Shown one piece after another: positions 2,755-11,706 of a DNA stretch of 33,473 bases. Numbering within the stretch: the first letter of the stretch is position 1; each line of letters starts with the position of its first letter. A program made the position numbers and the translations under genes. The stretch is from Gemmataceae bacterium (GTDB taxonomy: Bacteria; Planctomycetota; Planctomycetia; Gemmatales; Gemmataceae), in the NCBI GenBank assembly GCA_025055215.1, contig JANWYO010000198.1, positions 1 through 33,473 on the forward strand, read 5' to 3'. The notes beneath the pieces are model-generated. The model made no database searches and had not been told where the DNA came from. It saw only the letters and a list, made by a program, of their open reading frames with translations.

Positions 2755-3603
2755 TCAGAAAGGCTGCGGATCGAAACTCCCCGGGAGGGCGTCGCTGGGC
2801 CGAAACTCCATGGTGTCGATGTGGGACTGCGGGGCGGTTGACTCCTCTTCCCCTTCAAGGATCGACCGCAAGGACCGAGGCACCGGTGTCTCCCCGCTTG
2901 CCGCGCCCCCCGTTTCTATTTCCTCGGGCGGCTGCCGCGGCGTCGGGACCATTGGCGGCACCACGCGATAGGGATACGGACATCCCTGCATGGACGGACA
3001 CAGCGGACAATGTTGCGAATCGGCCCAGTCCTCCGCGCCTTCCGGCGGTAAGGCCGGACACGGCAGGCCCTCCACCGTGTCGCCCGTTGGCGTGTCTGGC
3101 GTCGCGACCGGCTCACCGGGGGGCAAGGGCCGCCGGTCCCAGGCAAACGGGCTGGCGTCATCGTCCGACAACGAACCTGCCGGGATGACCTGCGGCGGCG
3201 CGACGAGGGCATCACCGCCCGGTGGCGTGGTCCAATCGTTTGTGACCGACGGGGCAATCGGCGCAACCTGGTTGGATTCGGGATGCCAGAACTCTTGCCA
3301 GCTGATAGTGCTCAGGTCGATGACGTCGATCGGCCGAGGGTCGAGCAACTCCGTGGAAATCGGTGGTTCAGCCGTCGAAGGCAACGGCTCGGCGGTTTCC
3401 TCGCAGGGTTCCTCCACGGGCGGTTGGCTCGGCCGGTGGCTCCAAGGCCCGCAGAGCGGGTTCCATTTGAGCCCAAGGCGGCAGAGTCGTTGCACCGTTG
3501 CTAGCCCGCATGATCCCGGGGCACGGAGCGAATCACTGACGACCCACCAACCCGCGGCGGCAGCAATGACGGCTGCCCCACCATACCAAATGACGTAACG
3601 CAT
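2755..3603 (-). CDS. Proline-rich, acidic, membrane-anchored hypothetical protein
   Basis: A 282-residue protein that I cannot assign to a characterised family. The ATG at 3603 is chosen because GGGGAGAAG lies just upstream on the minus strand and a hydrophobic segment follows at once (residues 3-21, YVIWYGGAAVIAAAAGWWVV). That segment is a signal anchor or uncleaved signal peptide. The remainder is rich in Pro, Glu, Asp and Ser with low-complexity stretches, and contains several Cys pairs (for example QHCPLCPSMQGCPYP). It probably sits in the periplasm-like space, attached by the N-terminal helix. A short segment, DVIDLSTISWQEFW, is the only part that looks folded. The frame extends upstream to 3891, but that part has no hydrophobic or conserved features. 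Confidence 0.6.
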   Translation of the reverse strand: MRYVIWYGGAAVIAAAAGWWVVSDSLRAPGSCGLATVQRLCRLGLKWNPLCGPWSHRPSQPPVEEPCEETAEPLPSTAEPPISTELLDPRPIDVIDLSTISWQEFWHPESNQVAPIAPSVTNDWTTPPGGDALVAPPQVIPAGSLSDDDASPFAWDRRPLPPGEPVATPDTPTGDTVEGLPCPALPPEGAEDWADSQHCPLCPSMQGCPYPYRVVPPMVPTPRQPPEEIETGGAASGETPVPRSLRSILEGEEESTAPQSHIDTMEFRPSDALPGSFDPQPF

Positions 3604-3862
3604 TTCTTCTCCCCTGTTCCCGTAGTTCCGCGTGCGGCGGACAGCGTAGCTTGCCCTGCCCGCCCCCACAAGCAGGCGGGGCAAGGCCATCGGACGCGGA
3701 GTCCCACATGGTCCCTTTGCGCTCGGCGCGGCGCGGACTATAGCGACTCTCCCTGGCCACGCCAGAGCAATTCCGGCGGCAAGTCGGGCAGTTGATTCTC
3801 CATTCGTCCGTCTCCGCTGCCGCGACCGTTGCGAGAAAGATGCATGAACCTTGACTACCTGC

Positions 3863-3891
3863 TTGACGGGGCGCCTCGGGCCGACAATCAT
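3863..3891 (+). promoter_or_regulatory. Candidate sigma70-type promoter for rsfS
   Basis: TTGACG (3863-3868) resembles a -35 box and AATCAT (3886-3891) a weak -10 box, with 17 bp between them. It lies about 190 bp upstream of the rsfS start. The -10 matches only 4 of 6 consensus positions, so this is tentative. Confidence 0.3.
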
Positions 3892-4070
3892 GGTTAGTGG
3901 GAATTAGCGCGGGCTACAGTGGCTCGCGCCGGCCGTCGGTCCCGGTCGTGTTCGGGCCCGGCGGCGTCAAGTGTCCACTCAAGAAATCGGCCGCTTCGGC
4001 CTGGAGGTGGTCCACGACGCGGAAGCTGCCCGGAACGGTCGGGTGCGGGGCCTCCTCTGGCTGGCCCGGA

Positions 4071-4077
4071 AAGGAGG
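4071..4077 (+). promoter_or_regulatory. Strong Shine-Dalgarno that decides the rsfS start
   Basis: AAGGAGG at 4071-4077 lies 4 nt before the TTG at 4082. No comparable site precedes the upstream in-frame GTG at 3971. This favours a TTG start and a protein of the normal RsfS length. Confidence 0.6.
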
Positions 4078-4081
4078 TCCA

Positions 4082-4471
4082 TTGAAGGTCGCATCCCTGA
4101 CAAACGGACCGATCGCCCGCTCGGTAGTCGCCCTGGAACGTGCCGCCCTGTGTGCCCGAGTCGCCGCCGACCACAAGGCGGACGACATCCTCATCCTCGA
4201 CATGCGGGGCCTGACCCCGCTGTACGATTTCTTCGTCCTCGCCACCGGCAGCAGCCGCCGTCAACTGCACAATCTGGCCGAGGGCATCGACGCCGCCCTC
4301 CGCGAACTGGGTGAACAGCGCCTCGGAATCGAAGGCTACGAAGCCAGTCGCTGGATCGTCCAGGATTACGGCGACATCGTGGTCCACATTTTCGATCCAG
4401 ACGCCCGTCGCTTCTATGCCTTGGAGGATCTCTGGGCCGACGCACCACGGATCGATTGGGAGCGAATCTGA
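4082..4471 (+). CDS. rsfS: Ribosomal silencing factor RsfS
   Basis: RsfS (DUF143/Iojap family) binds ribosomal protein L14 and blocks joining of the 30S and 50S subunits, reducing translation under nutrient limitation. The 129-residue product from the TTG at 4082 has the whole family core: KADDILILDMRGLTPLYDFF (about residues 32-51), the ATGSSRRQ turn (54-61), then EGYEASRWIVQDYGDIVVHI and FYALEDLWADAPRIDW at the end. The TTG start is inferred from the AAGGAGG site; a GTG at 3971 would add 37 residues with no family similarity. It is followed 189 bp later by argS. A GC hairpin at 4510-4535 lies between them, so co-transcription is uncertain. Confidence 0.92.
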   Translation: MKVASLTNGPIARSVVALERAALCARVAADHKADDILILDMRGLTPLYDFFVLATGSSRRQLHNLAEGIDAALRELGEQRLGIEGYEASRWIVQDYGDIVVHIFDPDARRFYALEDLWADAPRIDWERI

Positions 4472-10242: not shown

Positions 10243-11706
10243 ATGCGTCAACGAACTCGATTTCGGGTCGCGGTTGCGGTTCTGCTTGTCACTTCGATGC
10301 CCGCAGGCGTATGGGGCAGCTACGCCATCTACGTCGGCAAAAACCTGACGACGGACGGAAGTGTCATCCTGGCTGGCTACGGCGATGAGCCGTCCAGCCA
10401 TTGGATTGACATCGTGCCCGCCCGGGAGTGGCCCGAGGGAACCAAGATCAAGGTCGGGGCCACGCCGAGGGCCAGGTTCCCGGGAGAGTTGATTGAGATT
10501 CCTCAAGTGCGCCGGACCGCCCGATACATCAGCGTCAACTACTCAGCGTTTGCCGGGTTCCCTGGGCCATTAACCAACGGGGGGCTGAATGAGCATGGAG
10601 TCGCTGCCCGGGATGTGTGGTCGCCATCACGGACGGAACTGCGGCAAATGACCCCCGTACCCCAGCGTGGCCTCAGCTATAGCGACTTGTCTCGGATCGT
10701 GATGGAACGGGCGCGCACGGCACAAGAGGCGGTCGAGATCGTTGGTGAACTGATTGACAAGTATGGGTATGCAACCTACGGCGGCAACTCGCACCTGTTT
10801 GCCGATGCCAATGAGGGGTGGGTGCTCATTGAATTTGCCGGGGGCCAGAAGCTGTGGGTGGCGGAGCGGCTGGGACCGGACGACATTCGCGTCTCCCGCC
10901 CAGGCTACATCGGAGAGATGCCTGTCGATTTTGAGAAGCATCCCCAATATCGCGGCTCCCGTAACCTGGTCACCTTCGCGGTTGACCAGGGGTGGTTTGA
11001 TCCCAAGGCCGGCAAGCCGTTCAACGTGAACCAGGTTTACGGCGACGGCCAAATGCGGCACCGCGGAGTGGTGCTGATCGAGGAACGTCTCCGCGCCAAG
11101 GCGAAGTCCGGCAAGATCAGTCTCGTGGACGTGATGGCGGCGGTCCGGGATCCGGAGCTGACCGGCGACATGGCCGGCTACGGCCAAGTCGTCCAACTCC
11201 GCCGGGTACCTCATCCTGATTTGGCGGTCCTCTGGATCGCTCCAGCGACCCCGACAGCGGCACCTTTCCTCCCGTTTTCCTTAGGGGTCACCGGGGTGCC
11301 ACCGGAGTATCAGCGACACCGTTACCTGACCGAGGGCGAGGCGGAGCGCTTCATGGAACGTCATCAGCAGGGGATCGAATCGACACGCTATGCCTTTCAG
11401 GAGTGTAAGCGATTGTTTTACCTGATGAACGAGCATCCCAAAGAGTTTCAGCCGGAGGTCACCAAGGCCCTGGAAGCGTTTGAGGCGAATCTGATCGCCG
11501 AACAGGCCACGGTGGAGCGGACGGCCCAAACGCTGTACGCGGCGGGTGAGCCGGAATTGGCGCGACGCTACCTGACATACTACAGCCAAGCCGAAGCGAT
11601 GAATGGCCTGCGATTGGTGCAGGCCTTGGCCAACAGTATCGAGGCTCGCACCAAGGTTCGATTCGGCATCCGGGCGCCGGCGGGCCCGCCGCCGCCCGCG
11701 AAGTGA
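10243..11706 (+). CDS. C69 (PepD/secernin-like) family peptidase homologue, secreted, Ser at the nucleophile position
   Basis: Ntn-hydrolase-fold protein of the C69 dipeptidase family, 487 residues from the ATG at 10243 (preceded by CGGAG). Residues 1-25 form a signal peptide ending V-W-G, and the mature protein would begin SYAIYVGKNLTTDGS. In C69 enzymes the equivalent segment is A-C-x-x-I-x-V-G-K, with the Cys becoming the N-terminal nucleophile; here that position is Ser26 (AGC, 10318-10320). Other family features are present: GGLNEHGVAARD, ERARTAQEAVEIVGELIDKY, and GGNSHLFADANEGWVLIEFA. Length is usual for the family. The C-terminal third (about 365-470) is helical and charged. It may be an active Ser-type enzyme or an inactive homologue; substrate is unknown. 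Confidence 0.85.
   Translation: MRQRTRFRVAVAVLLVTSMPAGVWGSYAIYVGKNLTTDGSVILAGYGDEPSSHWIDIVPAREWPEGTKIKVGATPRARFPGELIEIPQVRRTARYISVNYSAFAGFPGPLTNGGLNEHGVAARDVWSPSRTELRQMTPVPQRGLSYSDLSRIVMERARTAQEAVEIVGELIDKYGYATYGGNSHLFADANEGWVLIEFAGGQKLWVAERLGPDDIRVSRPGYIGEMPVDFEKHPQYRGSRNLVTFAVDQGWFDPKAGKPFNVNQVYGDGQMRHRGVVLIEERLRAKAKSGKISLVDVMAAVRDPELTGDMAGYGQVVQLRRVPHPDLAVLWIAPATPTAAPFLPFSLGVTGVPPEYQRHRYLTEGEAERFMERHQQGIESTRYAFQECKRLFYLMNEHPKEFQPEVTKALEAFEANLIAEQATVERTAQTLYAAGEPELARRYLTYYSQAEAMNGLRLVQALANSIEARTKVRFGIRAPAGPPPPAK

Follow-up and report, generated by a model that had tools for sequence, protein, structure and literature searches.

A Bacterial Branch of the C69 Peptidase Family with a Predicted N-Terminal Serine as Its Probable Nucleophile

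Introduction

Family U34 is said to have been placed among the N-terminal nucleophile (Ntn) hydrolases by a paper of 2003. In some members of the choloylglycine hydrolase family (PVA/BSH) the nucleophile is exposed by removal of methionine or by cleavage of a leader, and where methionine stands ahead of serine it is removed by methionine aminopeptidase. An excerpt of PMC2739207 describes an Asn and an Arg as essential in other Ntn-hydrolases, gives N241 and R263 as this pair in penicillin G acylase, and states that a His or Arg near the Ntn nucleophile probably lowers the pKa of the latter. According to a section of PMC9140057, exchange of Cys for Ser is linked with loss of self-processing in SCRN1 and in a Cys-to-Ser mutant of PLBD2. 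By titles and abstracts, no description of a Ser-type bacterial C69 branch was found in the open-access literature searched. Here we analyze a C69-like gene with such a serine on a stretch of 33,473 nucleotides from a Gemmataceae bacterium (contig JANWYO010000198.1), which is referred to below as the window.

Results

A C69-like gene in the window

The gene under study is the following.
10243..11706, + strand: coding sequence of a Ser-type C69-like protein (PF03577) of 487 amino acids plus stop, with an intact frame by translation and with relatives 57-71% identical to it.

Residues 29-271 of the product matched the Pfam model PF03577 (Peptidase_C69) with 83.7 bits, above the cut-off of 23. 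Against the NCBIfam equivalog for C69 dipeptidases, NF033678, the protein scored 87.6 bits, below the cut-off of 250 bits, as did the Cys-type relatives L030 and L055 (182 and 227.6 bits). The C69 cysteine dipeptidases as defined in MEROPS C69 and NF033678 have Cys as the N-terminal nucleophile and a conserved oxyanion Asn; Ser was found at the former position in 24/24 loci of the clade described below, and Arg219 at the latter in the window protein. The nearest solved structures were the entries of the Lactobacillus farciminis C69 dipeptidase, which a mixed profile reached with an E value of 6e-56.

The gene is preceded by genes with ArgRS, PHP and SRP54/FtsY-type domains and followed by genes with polysaccharide deacetylase, S41 protease and glycosyltransferase domains, and the domains on the two flanks gave no hint of a role. 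Foreign base composition was considered and nothing striking emerged, the GC content of the gene being 0.620 against 0.643 for the window and its GC3 0.734 against 0.678-0.832 across four neighbors. Pairwise blastp of flanking reading frames revealed no neighbor shared between subclades of the exported forms among the matches listed; within that same set, shared flank genes occurred only in the close relatives L018/L024, L019/L020 and L047-L050, and the remaining matches were the C69 gene itself.

Serine in the nucleophile column

The residue on which the analysis centers is encoded as follows.
10318..10320, + strand: codon AGC of Ser26, in the nucleophile column and expected at the mature N terminus, placed by alignments, mixed profile and superposition.

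The original prediction had set Ser26 against the nucleophile Cys of C69, and this assignment held. In the column alignment, S-Y-A-I-Y-V-G-K of the window protein stands opposite C-T-T-I-L-V-G-K, with Ser in 14/14 aligned clade rows and Cys in all 33 outgroup rows, a set free of duplicates, secernin-like rows, L066 and L072. Outside this set, Cys was also present in L077 and L078 from the Verrucomicrobiota sample and in L080-L082 from viral contigs. In the mixed profile, the counterpart of the Ser26 column in the L. farciminis dipeptidase is residue 9, a Cys by the title of a PDB entry, "C9A mutant". A move of the nucleophile to some other residue was examined and rejected, as Cys28 occurs in only 3/14 and Cys40 in only 2/14 aligned rows.

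When the N-terminal piece of L023 was added to the 14 aligned rows, Ser was kept in 15/15 leader-bearing loci (the window and members from the Planctomycetota, Acidobacteriota and Verrucomicrobiota samples), and it was likewise kept in 9/9 leaderless loci, which gives 24 in all. The clade uses AGC, AGT and TCG as codons for it. L023 itself (2935-4436, from a Pedosphaera MAG) is a Ser-type gene split over two frames by a frameshift or an assembly slip. A sequencing error or a decaying gene in the window was ruled out, because 23 other loci share this Ser and the dN/dS values lie well below 1 (0.045-0.264 in nine pairs with dS < 1.2). Invariance of the serine taken alone is weak evidence for function, given that there are 117 invariant columns among 341.

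We also modeled the mature window sequence from an input alignment that contained six further Ser-type and three Cys-type rows, which yielded a pLDDT of 83.9 and a pTM of 0.87; an earlier model from seven Ser-type rows had reached a pLDDT of only 44.5 and was not used. The model has the alpha-beta-beta-alpha fold of Ntn-hydrolases, with C69 (Z 36.4) and PVA/BSH (Z about 19) as top structures. Its residue 1, Ser26, pairs with C9 of 5iau (rmsd 4.3, 413 residues aligned), and all 50 matches listed, which include chains of PVA, BSH, NAAA and PvdQ, start at this residue. Because the input alignment had already paired Ser with Cys, the superposition agrees with the sequence evidence on this pairing and does not prove it.

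The leader and its predicted cleavage site

The leader of the window protein occupies the codons directly before Ser26.
10243..10317, + strand: predicted signal peptide, residues 1-25, with RQRTRFR as n-region, AVAVLLV as core and V-W-G at -3 to -1, from comparison of leaders.

The hydrophobic core ends 8 residues ahead of Ser26, and the corresponding distance was 5-9 residues in 14 of the 15 leader-bearing rows, the fifteenth (L021) being truncated by the end of its contig and left out of this count. All 15 members have residues permitted for signal peptidase immediately before the serine (Ala or Gly at -1; Ala, Val, Thr or Leu at -3), in line with the original prediction that Ser26 lies exactly at the cleavage site. 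The window's own V-W-G|S is plausible and weaker than the A-x-A found in 10/15 members. Among the 33 Cys rows, by comparison, the distance from core to Cys ran from 5 to 27 residues with a median of 17, and just 16 rows had permitted residues at both -3 and -1. In five of these rows (L003, L004, L014, L029 and L032) A-x-A directly precedes the Cys, and cleavage by signal peptidase could suffice to free the nucleophile; the Ser type is therefore not alone in allowing exposure by export.

A crude, hand-weighted cleavage scan covered five rows, in which the site before Ser came out at ranks 2, 1, 2, 1 and 6. For the window it gave 2.6 at this site and 3.1 for a cut after residue 28 (S-Y-A|I). Cleavage away from Ser26, which would have spoken against the original prediction, is thus slightly favored by the scan at +3 and is not indicated by the comparison of members.

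A leaderless alphaproteobacterial branch

A protein search of plasmid records returned 37 records, 18 of them with relatives spanning at least 80% of the query (16 from Sinorhizobium and one each from Limimaricola and Sulfitobacter). We read nine of these 18 loci, seven from Sinorhizobium and two from Rhodobacterales. The encoded proteins are 48-54% identical to the window protein. In all nine the start codon (ATG in eight, TTG in one) stands immediately before Ser. The frame remains open upstream of this start for 33-46 codons in four loci, with no signal-like stretch there, and for 11-17 codons in the other five. In a tree where eight of the nine rows were used and one near-duplicate was left out, the leaderless rows group together as a single clade within the Ser branch, with both nodes at 100/100, and the change of leader type behind them was probably a single event.

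An oligopeptide-type transporter gene, whole or as a remnant, adjoins the Ser-type gene in 7/7 Sinorhizobium loci read, with SBP_bac_5 domains in the binding proteins and BPD_transp_1 domains in the permeases; no such neighbor was present in the two Rhodobacterales loci read. Two gene orders were seen. L086 and L087 have binding protein, C69 gene and permeases, with an ATPase in addition in L086, whose leaderless C69 protein is WP_013851028.1, while L089, L093 and, in part, L090 have C69 gene, binding protein and permeases with a divergent HTH regulator. In L088 the binding protein lies downstream of the C69 gene. In L094 (S. meliloti RCAM1750), insertion-element genes break up the transporter genes between 6400 and 10200 and leave a remnant of the binding protein. 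The oligopeptide type of these neighbors points to a substrate that is imported as a peptide or a peptide-like compound.

Other positions of the active site

Four further features bear on the active site.
10375..10377, + strand: codon of Gly45, which replaces the His or Tyr of Cys-type C69 (Arg in lactobacillar members), from row counts.
10384..10386, + strand: codon of Asp48, a conserved Asp present in 23/23 Ser rows and 31/33 Cys rows.
10786..10788, + strand: codon of Asn182, a clade-specific invariant polar residue, present in 23/23 Ser rows.
10894..10905, + strand: codons of S218-R219-P220-G221, with Arg219 in the column of the oxyanion Asn, from row counts.

Column 45 is Gly in all 23 Ser rows, against His in 28 and Tyr in 5 of the 33 Cys rows. 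Asp48, counted from C9, falls at the position of D31 of the L. farciminis enzyme, for which entry 5imh is titled D31P. Column 182 holds Glu in 25 Cys rows, Arg in 6 and other residues in 2 (n=33). Column 219 is Asn in 33/33 Cys rows and Arg in 21/23 Ser rows (12/14 leader-bearing and 9/9 leaderless); the 218-221 loop was shifted by two residues in one alignment with other rows, and the window protein has no Asn there in either placement. The equivalent of the catalytic Arg was matched by residue 282 in one alignment and not in another.

Over residues 26-290, 43 columns are conserved in the Cys rows. The Ser clade keeps 32 of them, among others Asp48, Asn116, Arg156, Asp188, Trp193, Trp205, Ala207 and Arg209; 4 are mixed and 7 are lost, including the nucleophile Cys, the Pro-Asp pair 211-212 and the Asn at 219. 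Because columns 45 and 219 changed as well, the Ser clade does not represent a one-residue exchange of Cys for Ser. The original prediction had offered a Ser-type Ntn-hydrolase or an inactive protein; Ser26 proved invariant in its column, and the replacements by Gly45 and Arg219, which that prediction had not mentioned, speak against a simple swap. Either the active site would have been rebuilt around Ser, or catalysis would have been lost. Asn182 and Arg219 are, we infer, the clade-specific residues of first interest.

Distribution and phylogeny

The occurrence of the Ser type is sporadic. By matches that stood far above the rest, it was found in 2/392 genomes sampled from the window's phylum, in 6/396 from the phylum of the Bryobacterales match, one of these genomes having two copies, and in 1/288 from the phylum of the Pedosphaera match; no near full-length match appeared in the 58 other genomes of the relatives sample. 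The two copies of the Bryobacterales genome (G449; L044 and L025) lie on one contig at 53-829 and 6886-8298, about 6 kb apart, and one of them is more divergent, with the Ser retained and the SRPG loop altered. The viral contigs yielded three distinct relatives, all of the Cys type, and phage records returned only five weak partial matches.

In a tree from which the nucleophile column was omitted, the Ser rows lie on one side of a branch with 100/100 support and a length of 1.55. The cytosolic, secernin-like relatives of planctomycetes form a lineage of their own that is apparently degenerating: in the nucleophile column the nine aligned rows have Cys in four (L006, L009, L010, L011), Ser in three (L005, L007, L012), Arg in one (L008) and Gly in one (L002). 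L002 belongs to the window's own genome (G000:C62:3509-3853).

Discussion

These data are best explained by a Ser-type branch of C69 Ntn-hydrolases in which signal peptidase or removal of Met exposes the serine, which would then act as nucleophile; we hold this to be probable. Its two parts differ in strength. Exposure of Ser at the mature N terminus is well supported by the sequence comparisons, since both the leaders and the start codons predict Ser26 at this place, and catalysis by Ser26 is likely. In the proposed mechanism, the window protein would be exported and cut by signal peptidase I between Gly25 and Ser26. The exposed Ser26 would serve as nucleophile with its own alpha-amine as base, and the protein would, outside the cytoplasm, hydrolyze a peptide-like substrate at an amide bond. 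Cys members shed a propeptide by self-cleavage. Serine is here probably incapable of that reaction, which would account for a Ser branch without propeptide, and a general enzyme would take over instead. For the exported forms this would be signal peptidase I; for the leaderless ones of alphaproteobacteria, methionine aminopeptidase. That nothing stands ahead of Ser in either leader type is expected if a free N-terminal serine is needed and cannot free itself, and this agreement between two leader types is a stronger point for function than the invariance of Ser. The pattern is also in line with what the consulted excerpts and entry title give for SCRN1, the Cys-to-Ser mutant of PLBD2 and the Cys1Ser precursor of PVA.

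The main alternative is a pseudoenzyme whose catalysis was lost along with Cys, His/Arg and the oxyanion Asn and that now binds a peptide-like ligand or serves as a scaffold, its N terminus coinciding with Ser only as the point where the fold's first strand begins. Three active-site positions altered together would suit such a loss, as would the Ser, Gly and Arg variants in the secernin-like planctomycete rows and the precedent of SCRN1 in excerpts of PMC9140057 and PMC6792018. However, one would then have to explain a serine that has not drifted across 24 loci, the absence of any extra residue before it in two types of leader, and the retention of 32/43 pocket columns. The Sinorhizobium neighbors, moreover, already include a dedicated binding protein, so that a metabolic step is the natural role for the C69 gene product. 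We regard loss of catalysis as rather unlikely.

Activity by another chemistry, for instance through a bound metal or an Asp/Arg pair with Ser26 merely structural, would draw on the clade-specific invariant polar residues (Asn182, Arg219, His53, Arg123) and on the loss of the canonical Asn. Against it, the nucleophile is the residue that pairs with Ser26 in all 50 matches listed, and we know of no testable precedent in this fold, which leaves such chemistry very improbable. A signal peptidase cut three residues later, which would remove Ser26 as part of the leader, is scarcely credible despite its edge in the crude scan, because permitted -3/-1 residues precede Ser in 15/15 members, residue 28 is equally small in the forms that lack a leader and in the majority of Cys rows, so that its size belongs to the strand, and the leaderless forms start at Ser.

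Returning to the Ser-type Ntn-hydrolase that we prefer, a further proposition is that Ser naturally took over from Cys as nucleophile within one Ntn family. Self-processing would have been given up for maturation by signal peptidase I where the protein is exported and by methionine aminopeptidase where it is cytosolic, and in a rebuilt transition-state site Arg219, perhaps together with Asn182, would stand in place of the canonical Asn; on this proposition as a whole we are evenly divided. A conserved natural Ser branch would mean that evolution may bypass the loss of self-processing through a general leader-removing enzyme that exposes the nucleophile. The branch would also make it possible to test cleanly what else in an Ntn active site has to change along with the nucleophile. 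For annotation, the current database names of the alphaproteobacterial members, "C69 family dipeptidase" or "dipeptidase", imply a cysteine chemistry that does not apply to them.

Among known systems, the C69 dipeptidase of L. farciminis (formerly U34; PDB 5iau, 5img for C9A, 5imh for D31P) is the closest, with a match over the whole length of the fold and with the nucleophile column and the conserved Asp in common. The window protein differs from it in having Ser for Cys, Gly for Arg/His/Tyr and Arg for Asn, and in its lack of a propeptide. Human SCRN1 is a C69 relative reported with Ser at the active-site position in an excerpt of PMC9140057, where it is described, unlike the exported forms considered here, as cytosolic, uncleaved and presumed to be without protease activity; PMC6792018, in the portion consulted, has the Cys region as not shared and uses a C9A mutant, and so disagrees with PMC9140057 on the residue. 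The PVA/BSH proteins have a similar core fold (Z 17.8-19.7, rmsd 3.5-5.5 and 234-265 residues aligned among the matches listed) and an N-terminal nucleophile as predicted for the window protein, but theirs is Cys. The engineered Cys1Ser PVA is a precursor mutant according to the title of entry 2iwm, whereas the Ser of the window protein is natural and self-cleavage would not be needed to expose it. Finally, the Ser-type Ntn acylases (penicillin G acylase, cephalosporin acylase and PvdQ, the last with chains at Z 17.8-18.2 in the superposition) have the N-terminal Ser nucleophile that is predicted for the window protein, but they belong to another family, are two-chain products of self-cleavage and retain the Asn/Arg pair.
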